NCBI GenBank assembly: GCA_002782005.1
Contig: PFGT01000060.1
Location: forward strand, 81,456-121,210
From: Hydrogenophilales bacterium CG12_big_fil_rev_8_21_14_0_65_61_21
GTDB taxonomy: Bacteria; Pseudomonadota; Gammaproteobacteria; Burkholderiales; Thiobacillaceae
Direction: 5' to 3'
DNA length: 39,755 nucleotides
Of this stretch, positions 5,941 through 28,504 are shown one piece after another (the first letter of the stretch is position 1; the number at the start of each line of letters is the position of its first letter). The position numbers were made by a program, and so were the translations under genes. The notes beneath the pieces were generated by a model. The model did not search any database, had not been told where the DNA came from, and was given only the letters and a program-made list of their open reading frames with translations.

Positions 5941-7814
<1,874 letters not shown>

Positions 7815-10374: not shown

Positions 10375-10450
10375 TGGTGCCCTCGGCCCGAATCGAACGG
10401 GCGACCCTCCCCTTAGGAGGGGGATGCTCTATCCACTGAGCTACGAGGGC
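10375..10450 (-). tRNA. tRNA-Arg (anticodon CCT)
   Basis: Reading the minus strand, acceptor GCCCTCG pairs with CGAGGGC, the D-arm is GCTC-AGTGGATA-GAGC, the anticodon stem TCCCC/GGGGA encloses CTCCTAA (anticodon CCT), and the T-arm is GCCCG-TTCGATT-CGGGC. The CCA end is encoded (10375-10377). It reads the rare arginine codon AGG. Confidence 0.97.
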
Positions 10451-10460
10451 GTGGGCCGCG

Positions 10461-10490
10461 ATTCTAACCCGCCTGGCCGGCTCGGTGCAG
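10461..10490 (-). promoter_or_regulatory. Candidate promoter of tRNA-Arg(CCT)
   Basis: On the minus strand CTGCAC (10485-10490) and TAGAAT (10461-10466) are separated by 18 bases. The -10 ends 11 bases before the mature tRNA 5' end, a normal distance. The -35 is weak. Confidence 0.5.
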
Positions 10491-16898: not shown

Positions 16899-17534
16899 TC
16901 AATGGCCGGCCGGCCAATCCTGATCGTCGGGTTTGGCTCGCTCCAGATAGGCCTCTACCAGCAGGGTTGAGATGAGTTTGCGGTCCAGCGCCAGCCACAG
17001 CACCACCGGCGCCAGGGTCGGCAGGACCAAGGTGCCGAATTGATAGCCCAGGGCAATGACTTCCCGCGACTGCTCGCCGAATCCGGTCTGCGCCGCTACG
17101 GCGGGACCAGCCACGATGGCGACCTCCTTGAGCCAGGCGAACAGCACGCTGACGATCTGAAACGGCAGCAGGGCCAGCGCCGCCAACAGCATCTTGGTAA
17201 CCATGCCATGCGGCATCGAGGCCAGAAACAGCGCTGACAGGAGCGGCAGGCCATAGCCATAGGTAAGGTAATCCGCTTCCGGCGTCAGCAAGGCCACCTG
17301 ACCTGGCAGCGCCCCAGGTTGCGCAGGCATTTGCAGGCTGGTCATCAGGTCGATATGGGTACCGCTCAGTTCCGCGCCTTCGGCCCAGGACGGGAAGATC
17401 AGGTGCGCCAGCGCGCCGGTCAGCCAGCCCACCGGCATGGCCAGCAAGCCGGCTAGCGCGTACCACAACGACAGGCACAGCAGCAGCCAGAGAATTGTGC
17501 GCAGCAGAAATCCGGCCAGCAGGCTGAGGTTCAC
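16899..17534 (-). CDS. Exosortase H-associated membrane protein
   Basis: A 211-residue membrane protein beginning at a GTG that overlaps the xrtH stop (GTGA). It has a first helix (NLSLLAGFLLRTILWLLLCLSLWYA, residues 2-26 in two blocks), an extracytoplasmic-looking segment around ELSGTHIDLMTS and LLTPEADYLTYGYGLPLLSAL, then two or three helices (MLLAALALLPFQIVSVLFAW, VLPTLAPVVLWLAL) and a charged tail. It matches the kind of protein regularly encoded next to XrtH. Its function is not known; being translationally coupled to the exosortase it probably acts with it in the inner membrane. Confidence 0.8.
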   Translation of the reverse strand: MNLSLLAGFLLRTILWLLLCLSLWYALAGLLAMPVGWLTGALAHLIFPSWAEGAELSGTHIDLMTSLQMPAQPGALPGQVALLTPEADYLTYGYGLPLLSALFLASMPHGMVTKMLLAALALLPFQIVSVLFAWLKEVAIVAGPAVAAQTGFGEQSREVIALGYQFGTLVLPTLAPVVLWLALDRKLISTLLVEAYLERAKPDDQDWPAGH

Positions 17535-23494: not shown

Positions 23495-23524
23495 TTTCCA
23501 TGCCGTCCGAGAACATGGGATAAT
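23495..23524 (+). promoter_or_regulatory. Candidate promoter of the fluoride-riboswitch transcript
   Basis: TTTCCA (23495-23500) and GATAAT (23519-23524) are 18 bases apart. A transcript would begin about 23531, exactly at the start of the aptamer. A perfect hairpin CGTAGTC/GACTACG (23465-23484) lies just upstream of it, with no T-run. Confidence 0.5.
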
Positions 23525-23530
23525 TCAAAG

Positions 23531-23586
23531 CAGGAGATGGCATACCTCCTAATAACCGCCTGGGTTCCCGGCTGATGATGCCTACG
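23531..23586 (+). ncRNA. Fluoride riboswitch (crcB motif RNA) aptamer
   Basis: The segment follows the crcB-motif consensus closely: GGAGATGGCATACCTCC as the first stem-loop, AATAACCGCC in the middle, and GCTGATGATGCCTACG at the 3' side. GGCAT near the start pairs with ATGCC at the end, and the pseudoknot partners are present. It lies 72 bases before crcB, the classic fluoride exporter gene. Recognition rests on consensus matching by eye, which is strong here. Confidence 0.95.
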
Positions 23587-23616
23587 CGAACCCGGCACGG
23601 GCGGTGTAGGCATTTT
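23579..23616 (+). terminator. Expression-platform terminator of the fluoride riboswitch
   Basis: TGCCTAC (23579-23585) can pair with GTAGGCA (23606-23612), followed by TTTT. The left arm is also the 3' strand of the aptamer. Fluoride binding would hold that strand in the aptamer and let transcription continue into crcB; without fluoride the terminator forms. An inner CCCG/CGGG stem strengthens the hairpin. Confidence 0.88.
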
Positions 23617-23657
23617 CATGCACTGTCTGTGGAATGTGACTTTTCAAGGACAGATGC

Positions 23658-24044
23658 ATGTGGAAATCCATCTTCGCCATCGCCCTCGGCGCCGCGCTTG
23701 GCGCGCTGTTGCGCTGGCTGTTGGGCCTCAAGCTCAACGCGCTCTTCCCCACCATTCCCCCCGGCACACTGGCTGCCAACCTGATCGGCGGCTACGTCAT
23801 TGGTCTGGCCATCGCTTTTTTCAGTGCACTGCCGGGCCTGGCGCCGGAATGGCGCTTGCTGGTCATTACCGGCTTTTGCGGTGGGTTGACCACCTTCTCC
23901 ACCTTTTCCGCCGAGATCGCCACCCTGTTGCAGCAGGGCCGACCCTCCTGGGCGCTGGTCGCAGTCGCCGGGCATGTGTTGGGGGCGATCTTGATGACCT
24001 TCGCCGGCATCGCCACTGTGGCCTGGGCGCGGCACGCCGCGTGA
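23658..24044 (+). CDS. crcB: Fluoride channel/exporter CrcB (Fluc)
   Basis: A 128-residue four-helix membrane protein of the Fluc/CrcB family, which lets fluoride leave the cell as a dual-topology dimer. Family motifs are [29 protein letters not shown] and [16 protein letters not shown], the last holding the Phe and Thr/Ser residues of the fluoride path. The ATG at 23658 was chosen over 23654, which opens another frame; AAGGA lies about 6 bases before. It stands directly behind a fluoride riboswitch and looks intact. Confidence 0.96.
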
Positions 24045-24087: not shown

Positions 24088-24152
24088 CCATAGGGCGGCC
24101 CATGGTCGCTGTTCACCCGGTGCCGTTGCGGCGGGCATGGCCCGCCCTATGG
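24088..24152. repeat. Inverted repeat between crcB and the DUF190 gene (REP/MITE-like)
   Basis: CCATAGGGCGG (24088-24098) and CCGCCCTATGG (24142-24152) are perfect 11-base inverted arms. A nested palindrome GCGGGCATGGCCCGC (24131-24145) lies inside the right part. There is no T-run, and the segment is noncoding. Words of this TAGGGCGG/CCGCCC kind are common in dispersed palindromic repeats, but copies elsewhere cannot be seen here. Confidence 0.65.
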
Positions 24153-24184: not shown

Positions 24185-24535
24185 ATGGAAGGCTGTTTTA
24201 TCAGGTTTTATCTGCATGAGAACCAGCGCTGCCACGGCCGCCTGGCCTGGGAATGGCTGCTGGACCAGGCCAATAAGCTGGGTATCCGGGGCGGCACCGC
24301 ATTCCGCGCCATGGCCGGCTTCGGCCACCACCATCATCTGCAGGAAGATCACTTCTTCGAGTTGGCCGGCAATCTGCCGGTAGAGGTAGAGTTCACCGTC
24401 AGCGAGGAGGAATCGGCCCGGCTGCTGGAGCTGCTGCACAGGGAGAAGGTCCGGGTTTTCTACGCCCACATCCCGGCCCGCTTCGGGGTGGTGAATCCGG
24501 ACGTGGAGGAGCCGCCCGAGGAACCCGCGCCATGA
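24185..24535 (+). CDS. DUF190 domain protein
   Basis: A 116-residue soluble protein of the DUF190 family, which is often found next to crcB and has a PII-like fold. It begins GCFIRFYLHENQRCHGRLAWE and continues with GIRGGTAFRAMAGFGHHHH, DLPVEVEF-like NLPVEVEFTVSEEE and VRVFYAHIPARFG. The ATG has a strong AAGGAG site. Its stop overlaps the antiporter start (ATGA). A role in fluoride response or in ligand sensing for the nearby transporters is inferred from context only. Confidence 0.9.
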   Translation: MEGCFIRFYLHENQRCHGRLAWEWLLDQANKLGIRGGTAFRAMAGFGHHHHLQEDHFFELAGNLPVEVEFTVSEEESARLLELLHREKVRVFYAHIPARFGVVNPDVEEPPEEPAP

Positions 24536-25709
24536 CCGAAATCTGGACCCAGGCTGCGCTGTGGCTGGGGCTGGCCCTACTGGCCTCAATGCTGTCGATC
24601 TGGCTGCGGGTGGCTACCGCCTTGTCCGAGATCGTCGTCGGCACCATCGCCCAGTTATTCATTGGCGCGCTGCTGGGCAGCGCCATCCTGGCGGGGGATG
24701 CGAGCTGGATCAAGTTCCTGGCCGGGGCGGGGCGATCCTGCTGACCTTTTTGGCTGGTGCGGAGCTCGACCCCGCCGTGTTTCGCAAGCAGTGGAAACAG
24801 GCCACGGCCATCGGCCTGGTTAGCTTCATCGCCCCTTTTATCGGTTGTGCCGCACTGGCCCGCTGTGGCCTGGGCTGGAGCGTGGAAGCGAGCTGGCTGG
24901 CCGGCATCGCCATGTCCACCACCTCGGTGGCGGTGGTCTACGCGGTGATGCTGGAGTTCGGGCTGAACGCCACCGACTACGGCAAGACCGTGCTGGCCGC
25001 CTGCTTCATCACCGACCTGGTCACGGTGATCGCCTTGGGCCTGATCTTTGCCCCGTTCACTTACAGGACGCTGATCTTCCTCGGCGTCGGCGTGCTCGCG
25101 GCGGTCATCCTGCCGCGTCTGATCCCGCATTTCTTCCGCCGCTATGGCGGGCGGCCGTCGGAACTGGAAGCGAAGCTATTGATGTTCTGCCTGTTCGCCA
25201 TGGGCGCGCTGGCCACCTGGGCGGACAGTGAAGCGGTGTTGCCGGCCTATCTGCTGGGTATGGTGCTGGCCGGCACGGTGGGCAAGGACCACGCCCTCGT
25301 TCGCCGCCTGCGCACGCTGACCTTCGGCCTGCTGACCCCGTTCTACTTCATCCGCGCCGGCTCGCTGGTGTCGCTGCCGGCCTTGGTGGCGGCACCCCTG
25401 GCCTTCGTCGCGCTGCTACTGGCGAAGATGGCGACCAAGATGGCGAGCGTCTATCCGGTGGCACGCGGCTACGGTTCGCCGAAACAGGAAGGCATGTACA
25501 CCACGCTGTTGATGTCCACCGGGCTGACCTTCGGCACCATCTCGGCCCTGTTCGGCTTGAGTCACCAGATCGTCGATCAGGCCCAGTATTCCGCGTTGGT
25601 GGCGGCGGTGATCGGCAGCGCGGTGGTGCCGACCCTGATCGCCAACGCCTTCTTCCTGCCGAGACATTTGCTGCCGCGCGAGGACAAGGATGCACACGGA
25701 ACCGCCTGA
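24532..25709 (+). pseudogene. Cation:proton antiporter (CPA2/Kef type), broken by one frameshift
   Basis: Two overlapping frames together give a full antiporter of about 392 residues. The first runs from ATG 24532 to a stop at 24744 and carries the first helices (EIVVGTIAQLFIGALLG, then KFLAGAG). The second carries the rest: ILLTFLAGAELDP, GIAMSTTSVAVVYAVM, LGMVLAGTVGKDH and LLMSTGLTFGTISALFG. The break lies in GGGGCGGGG (24724-24732): adding one G restores AGAGAILLTFLAGAELDP. A real one-base deletion, a sequencing error or ribosomal slippage could all explain it. The gene belongs to the crcB transcript and overlaps the next gene by 20 bases. Confidence 0.88.
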
Positions 25710-26163
25710 CGCCTCGCCCGCCGCCGTGGGCGCCTTGGTGGAGGCGGCTGCGGCCATTCCGGGCGTGCCGCAGGCACCACTGGCCGACTTGCGCGGCAAG
25801 CTGGCGCAACACGCCTTCAATCTGGTGGTGGCAGGCGAATTCAAGCGCTGCAAGAGTAGCCTCATCAACGCGCTGCTGGGGGCTGGCCTGCTGCCCGCTT
25901 TCGTCAGCCATCCCATCCCTCTGCGCCAGGCCGGCCGGCTGCGCCACGATTTCGAGGAACGCATCAAGGCGAGCGTGCGCGACTTCCGCCGTGAGATGCT
26001 CGATCGCATCGAAGCCACTCTCGCCGGCATCGAGACCGCCATCGGCCAGGGCCGAGCACTACGCCAGCGCGGCGAAAGCGAGACCGCTTCCCGGCAGCGG
26101 GAACTGGCCGAGGGGCTGGGGCGCATCGCGGTACTGGAAGCGAGGAGCCTGTCGGACTTATGA
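25690..26163 (+). pseudogene. Internally deleted dynamin-like GTPase remnant
   Basis: This 157-residue frame joins two distant parts of a dynamin-family GTPase. Residues 1-72 are the GTPase start with the P-loop region LVVAGEFKRCKSSLINALLG; the family has GEFKRGKSS, so the P-loop Gly is Cys. From about residue 83 the sequence is the helical C-terminus (RIEATLAGIETAIGQGRALRQRGE). The switch regions, G3 and G4 motifs and the stalk are missing, some 400 residues in family members. It cannot be a working GTPase. The frame itself is open, so a small protein could still be made. It starts inside the 3' end of the antiporter gene. Confidence 0.82.
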
Positions 26164-26257: not shown

Positions 26258-26677
26258 ATGATCCAGAAACTGCTTATCGCCTACGACGGCTCCGACTCGG
26301 CCCGCGCCGCCTTCGACTTCGCTCTCGACCTGGCCGGCAAGTACGGCGCGGAATTGCACGTACTGGCGGTGGCCCGTCCACCGGAGTTCGGCGATGAGGT
26401 GGAGACCGAAGCGGTGATCGAACAATCGCGCCGCCACCATGCCCACACCCTGCAACCGCTCAAGTCCCGGACCGGCGCGCTGAAGGCGCATTTCGAGGTC
26501 AAGGTCGGCCACCCGGCCGAGACCATCGTGCTCTACGCCGAGGACCACGGCATCGACCACATCGTGGTCGGCCATCGCGGCCATGGCCTGTTCGAGCGCT
26601 GGCTGATCGGCTCGGTGGCGCGCCAGGTGATCGCCTACGCGCCCTGCGCGGTGACGGTGGTGCGTCCGCGTGCTTGA
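26258..26677 (+). CDS. Universal stress protein (UspA family)
   Basis: A 139-residue single-domain Usp protein. It begins QKLLIAYDGSDSARAAFDFAL with the adenine-contacting Asp, and ends with the ATP-binding pattern VVGHRGHGLFERWLIGSVARQV (G-x2-G-x9-G-S) and CAVTVVRPRA. It is therefore probably an ATP-binding Usp. The ribosome site CAGGAG lies 8 bases before the ATG. Usp genes are among those reported downstream of fluoride riboswitches, which fits its place at the end of the crcB cluster, 94 bp after the dynamin remnant. Confidence 0.93.
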   Translation: MIQKLLIAYDGSDSARAAFDFALDLAGKYGAELHVLAVARPPEFGDEVETEAVIEQSRRHHAHTLQPLKSRTGALKAHFEVKVGHPAETIVLYAEDHGIDHIVVGHRGHGLFERWLIGSVARQVIAYAPCAVTVVRPRA

Positions 26678-26716: not shown

Positions 26717-27301
26717 ATGCAGTTGATTTCGCGGCGTCGCTTCCGACAGGCCGCATTTATCTGCGGCACCCTGGCCGCACTGGTTCTGGCCACCGGCGGT
26801 GGTCTGTATGCCTATTGGCAGGCCGGCGGCAATTTCCATGAGGTGGAGGCGGGTCGGTTTTACCGTTCGGCCCAGCTCGATCCGGCAGAGCTGGATCGGG
26901 TGGTCAAGCGCTATGGCATCCGCTCGGTCCTCAATCTGCGCGGCAATAACACTGGCACGCCCTGGTACGACGGCGAGGTCGTGACCAGCGCAGCCGATGG
27001 CGTAGCCCATTTCGATTACCCCATCTCGGCCGAGAATCCGGTCACAGTCAGGCAAATGCAAGAAATCCTGGCCATCCTGAGCACGGCGCCGAAACCGGTG
27101 CTGGTCCATTGTCAGGCGGGATCGGATCGCACCGGCCTGGTCTCAGCGCTGTATCGACTGTCGCGGGGCGCGGACGTGGCGACGGCGGGAGAGCAGTTAT
27201 CGTTGATGCACTATGGACATTTCCCCTACCTGTGGAGCAAGACCCAGGCGATGGACGACAGTTTCCTGGCCTACACCGCTACATTGAAACCCACCCTGTA
27301 A
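26717..27301 (+). CDS. Membrane-anchored tyrosine/dual-specificity phosphatase
   Basis: A 194-residue protein with an N-terminal membrane helix after an RRR-rich start (residues 10-34), then a cysteine-phosphatase domain. The P-loop is VHCQAGSDRTG (Cys132, Arg138), matching HCx5R, and the DSP-like lead FYRSAQLDPAELDRVVKRYGI and VLNLRG are visible. The catalytic domain most likely faces the periplasm. Substrate is unknown; related proteins act on phosphotyrosine or phosphoinositide-like substrates. The ribosome site CAGGAG is good. It sits between usp and the MFS gene. Confidence 0.88.
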   Translation: MQLISRRRFRQAAFICGTLAALVLATGGGLYAYWQAGGNFHEVEAGRFYRSAQLDPAELDRVVKRYGIRSVLNLRGNNTGTPWYDGEVVTSAADGVAHFDYPISAENPVTVRQMQEILAILSTAPKPVLVHCQAGSDRTGLVSALYRLSRGADVATAGEQLSLMHYGHFPYLWSKTQAMDDSFLAYTATLKPTL

Positions 27302-27319: not shown

Positions 27320-28504
27320 ATGATCGAAAAACTCCTTTCCCTGCCTCGTACCGTCTGGCTGCTCGGCCTGGTGAGCCTGTTCAATGACAGCACCAGCGAA
27401 CTGGTTTATCCACTGGTGCCGCTGTTTCTGGCCTCGGTGCTGATGGCCGGCCCGAAGGCGCTCGGCCTGATCGAGGGCATCGCCGAGGCCACCGCCAGCC
27501 TGCTGAAGCTCTTTTCCGGCGTGGTCATGGATCGCCGAGGTCACGCCAAGGGCTGGGTGGCAGGCGGCTATGGCCTGGCGGCCCTGTCCCGGCCGCTGTT
27601 TTACCTGGCGTCGAGCTGGCCCATGGTGCTGGTGCTGCGCTTTGCCGACCGGGTCGGTAAGGGTCTACGTACCTCGCCGCGTGACGCACTGCTGGCTGGC
27701 GCTGTGAGTGACGACCGCCGGGGCCTGGCCTTCGGCCTGCACCGCGCCATGGATAACGCCGGGGCGGTGATTGGACCGCTGCTGGCCGCCTGGCTGCTGG
27801 CCAGAGGGGTGGCGATCAAGGACGTGTTTCTGTGGGCTATCGTGCCGGGCATGATGACCGTCGCTCTGGCCTTGGCGATCAAGGAACCGCCAACCGTACC
27901 GATGGCTGAGCGCCGGCCCTTCTCCTGGCGGATGGCCGGCTTCCCCCCCGCTTACAAGCGTTACCTGCTGGTGCTGGCCCTGTTCACCCTGGGTAATTCG
28001 TCCAACATGTTCCTACTCCTGCGGGCCAAGGAACTGGGCCTGGCCGATTACCAGGTGCCGCTGTTGTGGGCGCTGACCTCGGCGGTAGCGATGCTGTTGT
28101 CCACGCCGCTGTCCGCCCTGTCCGACCGCCTGGGCCGGACGCGGCTGATCCTGGTTGGCTGGGCGGTATATGGCCTGTTCTATCTGGCTATGGGGCTGAA
28201 TGGCTTTCATACCTTGCTGCTGTGGCCATTGTTCGCCTTTTACGGGCTGTTTTTGGCTGCGACCGAAGGCAGTGAAAAGGCCTTGGTGGCCGACCTTGCG
28301 CCGAAAAACATGCTCGGCACAGCGTACGGTTGGTTCAACCTGACGACGGGGGTGATGCTGCTGCCCGCCTCGTTGCTGTTTGGCCTCATTTACCAGCAAG
28401 CCGGCGCGCCAAGCGCATTTGCCTTTTCCGCCGCTTGCGCCTTGATCGCCGCCGTGTTGCTGCCGCTCTGGGCGCTGCGCGGCAGCCGGTCAGTATCATC
28501 CTGA
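27320..28504 (+). CDS. MFS transporter
   Basis: A 394-residue transporter with about twelve helices. The start VSLFNDSTSELVYPLVPLFL and the loop RFADRVGKGLRTSPRDALLA are typical of one MFS subgroup whose members are annotated as drug or metal (for example nickel) exporters. The second half begins near FTLGNSSNMFLLLRAKELG and repeats the loop as ALSDRLGRTRLILVG. It starts 18 bp after the phosphatase and may share its transcript. The gene is complete; the substrate cannot be named. Confidence 0.92.
   Translation: MIEKLLSLPRTVWLLGLVSLFNDSTSELVYPLVPLFLASVLMAGPKALGLIEGIAEATASLLKLFSGVVMDRRGHAKGWVAGGYGLAALSRPLFYLASSWPMVLVLRFADRVGKGLRTSPRDALLAGAVSDDRRGLAFGLHRAMDNAGAVIGPLLAAWLLARGVAIKDVFLWAIVPGMMTVALALAIKEPPTVPMAERRPFSWRMAGFPPAYKRYLLVLALFTLGNSSNMFLLLRAKELGLADYQVPLLWALTSAVAMLLSTPLSALSDRLGRTRLILVGWAVYGLFYLAMGLNGFHTLLLWPLFAFYGLFLAATEGSEKALVADLAPKNMLGTAYGWFNLTTGVMLLPASLLFGLIYQQAGAPSAFAFSAACALIAAVLLPLWALRGSRSVSS

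Follow-up and report, generated by a model that had tools for sequence, protein, structure and literature searches.

A fluoride riboswitch upstream of crcB in a Thiobacillaceae genome, with a possible translational strand relay in its leader

The fluoride riboswitches of B. cereus and T. petrophila are transcriptional switches, for which the exchange of one strand between pseudoknot and terminator is a proven mode of action (PMC11077080; PMC13273304). Terminators overlapping the motif were already noted in 2010 (PMC2864571), and strand sharing between aptamer and hairpin was recovered by covariation in 2026 (PMC13273304). In the same 2026 survey, 323 of 1901 fluoride riboswitches were functional in an in vitro transcription assay, the covariation models were derived from terminator types, and the aptamer-plus-hairpin motif was read as common to transcriptional and translational platforms. 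Some fluoride riboswitches, that of Pseudomonas syringae among them, are named translational there and were shown not to terminate in vitro. In Enterobacter cloacae FRM, a fluoride riboswitch lies 5' of a multigene operon containing crcB and usp, as shown by RT-PCR (PMC5533749).

The locus considered here lies in a stretch of 39,755 nucleotides (contig PFGT01000060.1, positions 81,456 to 121,210), hereafter the window. Its comparison with the described systems leads to the following: (i) like the switches of B. cereus and T. petrophila, it has an RF01734 aptamer, ON logic and a pseudoknot strand that takes part in a competing hairpin, but it differs from them by a poor U-tract and by an additional Shine-Dalgarno (SD) hairpin and ON helix; (ii) with translational fluoride riboswitches such as that of P. 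syringae, it would have the mode of control in common; (iii) like that of E. cloacae FRM, it precedes a multigene operon with crcB and usp, but with DUF190, an antiporter, a dynamin remnant and possibly an MFS gene, and with no ppaC, eno or gpmA among the genes listed. The aptamer, the ON logic, strand sharing and, by name, translational fluoride riboswitches are thus already known. The riboswitch is of a known kind and its platform is probably a translational relay, which would be a new variant if confirmed; no description of the strand relay was found in the literature searched, and a prior description is possible.

The aptamer and its position

The features of the leader, all on the + strand, are as follows.

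23495 to 23524, + strand: promoter-like TTTCCA-18-GATAAT ending at the aptamer (weak; 2 such sites in the region versus 1.2 expected by chance)
23524 to 23591, + strand: fluoride aptamer RF01734 (covariance model), with P1 23532-23536/23546-23550, P3 23558-23572 and pseudoknot 23539-23543/23578-23582
23578 to 23613, + strand: T hairpin, which has the 3' pseudoknot strand as part of its stem (folds, shuffle test)
23613 to 23616, + strand: UUUU tail (sequence), the first U being able to pair in the T stem
23596 to 23631, + strand: proposed ON helix, 23596-23608 with 23619-23631, which sequesters the anti-SD strand (predicted fold)
23617 to 23660, + strand: proposed OFF hairpin, burying the crcB Shine-Dalgarno sequence (AAGGA 23646-23650) and AUG (predicted folds)
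23658 to 24044, + strand: crcB, fluoride exporter, 128 aa (PF02537; NCBIfam fluoride efflux transporter CrcB)

Searching a 301-base stretch with the Rfam covariance model gives RF01734 at 23524-23591 on the + strand, over the full model (1-64 of 64), with 50.0 bits versus a gathering threshold of 34 (E 3.4e-13). This is the Infernal check proposed by a sequence-only reading of the window, which had called a fluoride riboswitch at 23531-23616, the right end being the last U of the UUUU tail; that identification is borne out. A single copy was found by covariance-model search in the whole 2.27-Mb genome. Two tRNA genes lie 5' of the aptamer and the crcB start lies 66 nt 3' of it, i.e., a fluoride-related gene follows, as in the class. 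On the strength of the model match and this position, the RNA is a genuine fluoride riboswitch, with predicted fluoride binding.

P1 and P3 are taken from the model match and the folds, and the pseudoknot GGCAU (23539-23543)/AUGCC (23578-23582) from reading of the sequence. The leader 23524-23620 folds better than its dinucleotide shuffles, of which 2 of 200 equal it (z −2.42). The aptamer alone has a fold no better than shuffles (z 0.33), which is expected because the pseudoknot lies beyond the folding program used. A layout resembling the promoter-like element is seen by eye 5' of several relatives' aptamers.

The leader between aptamer and crcB

The T hairpin has 10 bp, formed by AUGCCUACGC (23578-23587) with GUGUAGGCAU (23604-23613), for −21.0 kcal/mol. 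None of 100 shuffled versions of the downstream stretch gives so strong a hairpin (p 0.0099, the lowest value that this test can return). Among close relatives 96.8% of the cells are paired, and one pair has double changes, in three rows. The first five bases of the hairpin are the 3' strand of the pseudoknot, thus aptamer and T hairpin are mutually exclusive. The strand common to both had been pointed out from the sequence, and AUGCC at 23578-23582 does open the 10-bp hairpin. Such sharing is the standard design of the fluoride riboswitch class and is not special to this locus.

The same reading took the hairpin for a terminator. This identity is weakly founded: the window copy would be a borderline terminator, its tail being UUUU followed by C, with a terminator d-score of −0.7 (formula and threshold provisional). 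By the same formula, the d-score is above 0 in 4 of 52 related loci, and the window ranks sixth best of the 52. A simple terminator scan did not list the T hairpin; its loop limit of 3-8 may exclude it. The hairpin itself is widespread, exceeding 95% of shuffles in 49 of the 62 related loci whose first gene was located. This figure is preferred to a count of hairpins «present» (61 of 62), which was dropped as too permissive, a stem of 5 bp being attained by 77% of shuffles too. A U-run of at least 4 within ten bases after the T core is found in 12 of the 61 loci that have a T hairpin in the order and family samples, window included, and likewise in 12 of 61 loci of a second set. Among the 12 family loci, no U-run is longer than that of the window, and G017 equals it. 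Seven relatives whose crcB leader is the same (G447, G457, G469, G502:C35, G485, G006 and G481) keep the T hairpin with U-runs of 1-3, so that in the group of the window the hairpin is retained without a good U-tract.

Two further predicted folds link the hairpin to crcB. In the OFF hairpin, CAUGCACUGUCU pairs with GGACAG and UGCAUG, covering the Shine-Dalgarno sequence and the start codon. Over 9 distinct rows, that of the window among them, all 54 cells of the six-pair core show a pair, and one change is compensatory; a result as good is reached by 47 of 500 shuffles. The ON helix (13 bp, −19.2 kcal/mol) is formed between the anti-SD strand and the part of the T hairpin made up of its loop and 3' side; it is incompatible with both the T hairpin and the OFF hairpin, and compatible with the pseudoknot. 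The count in close relatives took in ten pairs of this helix: 95.6% of the cells are paired, there are no double changes and the value is not above shuffles (294 and 436 of 500 as high). Covariation within close relatives is therefore uninformative as support for the ON helix and is not used. The sequence-only reading had the ON logic right, and it missed the Shine-Dalgarno hairpin and the competing helix, which point to translational control.

The evidence leans modestly towards a translational ON switch for crcB and the operon, acting chiefly through a relay of strands. The elements of this model are the aptamer, three hairpins computed as possible folds, and strands whose complementarity exceeds chance in relatives; we infer the ligand response, the order of co-transcriptional folding, the effect on the ribosome and the extent of termination. 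Without fluoride, the T hairpin would take the 3' strand of the pseudoknot (AUGCCUAC); its other half being then occupied, the anti-SD strand would be free to pair with the Shine-Dalgarno sequence and start codon of crcB (OFF). With fluoride, the pseudoknot would hold AUGCC and the T hairpin could not close; its loop and 3' arm would capture the emerging anti-SD strand (ON helix), leaving the Shine-Dalgarno sequence exposed (ON). The ON helix would be kinetically favoured because both its strands are transcribed before the Shine-Dalgarno sequence, which is a matter of reasoning and not a result. The UUUU tail of the window copy may add some termination of transcription in the OFF state.

A purely transcriptional switch, in which the T hairpin and UUUU form an intrinsic terminator prevented by fluoride and the downstream helices are incidental, is unlikely. 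The stability of the hairpin (−21.0 kcal/mol), the four U, the sixth rank of the d-score of −0.7 and the strand exchange proven in B. cereus and T. petrophila (PMC11077080; PMC13273304) all speak for it, but the U-run is short and ends in C, the runs of the relatives are of 1-3, few loci (4 of 52) have a d-score above 0, and the SD hairpin and ON helix are left unexplained. To the same low degree it may be envisaged that both modes operate, with part of the transcripts ending at UUUU and those that read through having their SD sequestered; the window does combine a borderline terminator with a strong SD hairpin.

Strand complementarity across loci

The translational relay was compared with two sets of loci; RF01734 matches under the cut-off were not used. 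The first set comprises 83 above-cut-off matches of the order and family samples, 62 of them with a located first gene and 61 with a T hairpin; 54 loci entered the foreign-partner test and 52 the energy tests. Representatives number 29 in the shuffle test, where two CrcB query labels are kept apart, and 24 in the foreign-partner test, where they are merged. The second set has 86 loci, i.e., 69 plus-strand matches from antiporter loci and 17 of 25 class-search matches above the cut-off, window excluded; minus-strand matches and 8 loci judged to be repeats of first-set genomes were left out. Removal of 2 exact aptamer duplicates, 19 loci without a located gene or start and 4 without a T hairpin leaves 61 loci, of which 33 are non-redundant with a spacer of 10-90 nt, and near-duplicates of the first set may remain among them.

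In the first set, the T loop and 3' arm are complementary to the spacer preceding the Shine-Dalgarno sequence above dinucleotide shuffles in 25 of 61 loci (p<=0.05; Fisher 9e-11 over the 29 representatives). For the anti-SD and SD strands this is the case in 15 of 61 loci (p<=0.05; Fisher 3.9e-5). When cognate partners are compared with those of foreign families (24 representatives), the T arm and spacer give 1.4e-5 in one direction and 3.9e-7 in the other; for the SD and spacer the values are 1.1e-7 and 0.0017. The aptamer-body control is itself mildly positive in the order set (0.0064), thus some effect of composition is contained in this test. In the second set (33 loci), the values are 3.7e-4 and 5.1e-4 for T arm and spacer, modest for each locus (4 and 3 of 33 at p<=0.05), and 5.8e-5 and 0.037 for SD and spacer, with aptamer-body controls of 0.47 and 0.44. 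As for the window, its T arm shows no preference between its own and foreign spacers (p 0.41); in the reverse test, the spacer does prefer the T arm of the window (p 0.022).

When the pseudoknot strand is omitted in silico, the cost of freeing the Shine-Dalgarno sequence falls in 42 of 52 loci and rises in 9 of 52. Freeing any strand tends to reduce this computed cost. With the strand omitted, a shuffled T loop is costlier than the real one in 42 of 52 loci (p 5e-7). In the window the cost is 14.1 kcal/mol with the strand and still 10.2 kcal/mol without it. Switching at equilibrium, from energies alone, is thus unsupported for the window; its energies do not predict an open Shine-Dalgarno sequence, so that co-transcriptional kinetics must be assumed. 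The idea that the T loop literally imitates the Shine-Dalgarno sequence was also rejected as a general rule: a small number of loci look striking to the eye, but overall the likeness does not exceed that to foreign SDs (Fisher 0.142, n=76, 3 at p<=0.05).

It is possible, if somewhat less than an even prospect, that the translational relay is common to many fluoride riboswitches, within Burkholderiales and outside; what is a terminator hairpin in Bacillus would there have come to act as a gate, its loop and 3' half binding the anti-SD strand once released. If so, many non-terminating fluoride riboswitches would have a common platform, the window copy would be intermediate between the two modes, and its terminator-like hairpin may serve as a gate of translation. 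A testable model for non-terminating switches would help to explain how one aptamer moves between modes.

Operon genes and the antiporter family

Behind crcB, the window contains the following features.

24088 to 24152, + strand: REP-like palindrome between crcB and DUF190 (22-nt arms, 86% complementary)
24185 to 24535, + strand: DUF190 gene (PF02641)
24532 to 25709, + strand: Na_H_Exchanger / CPA2-like antiporter, frame broken around 24720-24740 (domain search, reading frames)
25690 to 26163, + strand: dynamin-like gene remnant (below the Pfam cut-off; homologue comparison)
26258 to 26677, + strand: universal stress protein gene (PF00582)
26717 to 27301, + strand: tyrosine / dual-specificity phosphatase-like gene, of uncertain operon membership (domain search)
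27320 to 28504, + strand: MFS transporter gene, of uncertain operon membership (found in synteny in several members of the family, five of them at 83-92% identity)

One frame of the antiporter runs from 24532 to a stop near 24741 and another is open to 25709, versus one single frame in relatives (390 aa in G425). The dynamin-like gene consists of two ends, about 390 internal residues being missing with reference to the full-length homologue of G385; in its P-loop a Cys replaces the second Gly. The REP-like palindrome has 24 matches in the genome, own copy included, and in G447 a HIT-domain gene takes its place after crcB. The antiporter frameshift and the dynamin deletion may be true mutations or assembly errors; as read, the tail of the operon looks decayed. 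That the riboswitch is a relic which has lost switching in a decaying operon is very improbable: frameshifted antiporter, gutted dynamin and palindrome would suit it, but against it stand the full-length model match of the aptamer (50.0 bits), an intact crcB and the pairing of the leader helices. In G006, of the same genus (L004 / L054), the crcB frame apparently runs into a shortened DUF190 stretch, giving a 174-aa ORF by decay or frameshift.

An antiporter follows at least 20 of the 83 above-cut-off riboswitches, window among these; the stretches behind them are unequal (642 to 9500 nt), so that such counts are lower bounds. The aptamer lies directly 5' of the antiporter (G157, G072, G176), of DUF190 (G165, G059, G017), of dynamin (G116) or of enolase (G306). 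Starting from the antiporter, 68 of the best 80 of 112 relatives of the window protein in GTDB genomes have an above-cut-off aptamer upstream on the same strand, within a searched flank of at most 4 kb. None above the cut-off was found upstream in the other 12 of the 80 (L146, L149, L152, L154, L161, L162, L190, L196, L197, L205, L207 and L212), of which L190, L196, L207 and L212 have less than 800 nt of upstream sequence. For scale, any RF01734 match at E<=0.001 occurs in 65 of 399 sampled genomes of the order.

The guess that the riboswitch may also control the DUF190, antiporter, dynamin and Usp genes was thus a good one, given the 68 of 80: their association with fluoride riboswitches stands. 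For the window itself it was overstated, owing to the broken antiporter frame, the loss of about 390 dynamin residues and the palindrome. The association ties the antiporter family of the window closely to fluoride, and each antiporter may be under the control of its aptamer.

In two loci (L087 and L056, from G425 and G023), no crcB can be recognised behind the riboswitch, and the leader 5' of the antiporter still has both its T hairpin and its SD hairpin. In L091 (G306 C8), the aptamer directly 5' of enolase (contig 10409-10472) has no clear T hairpin, and a second aptamer is followed by crcB. Two divergent fluoride aptamer pairs occur on one contig in L094 (G116 C44), at 6735-6967 and 17118-17434; divergent pairs are also found in L177 and L223. 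In L206, of Bradyrhizobium, a match to the nhaA-I RNA (RF03057) at 1437-1490 shares its stretch with a fluoride aptamer and an antiporter.
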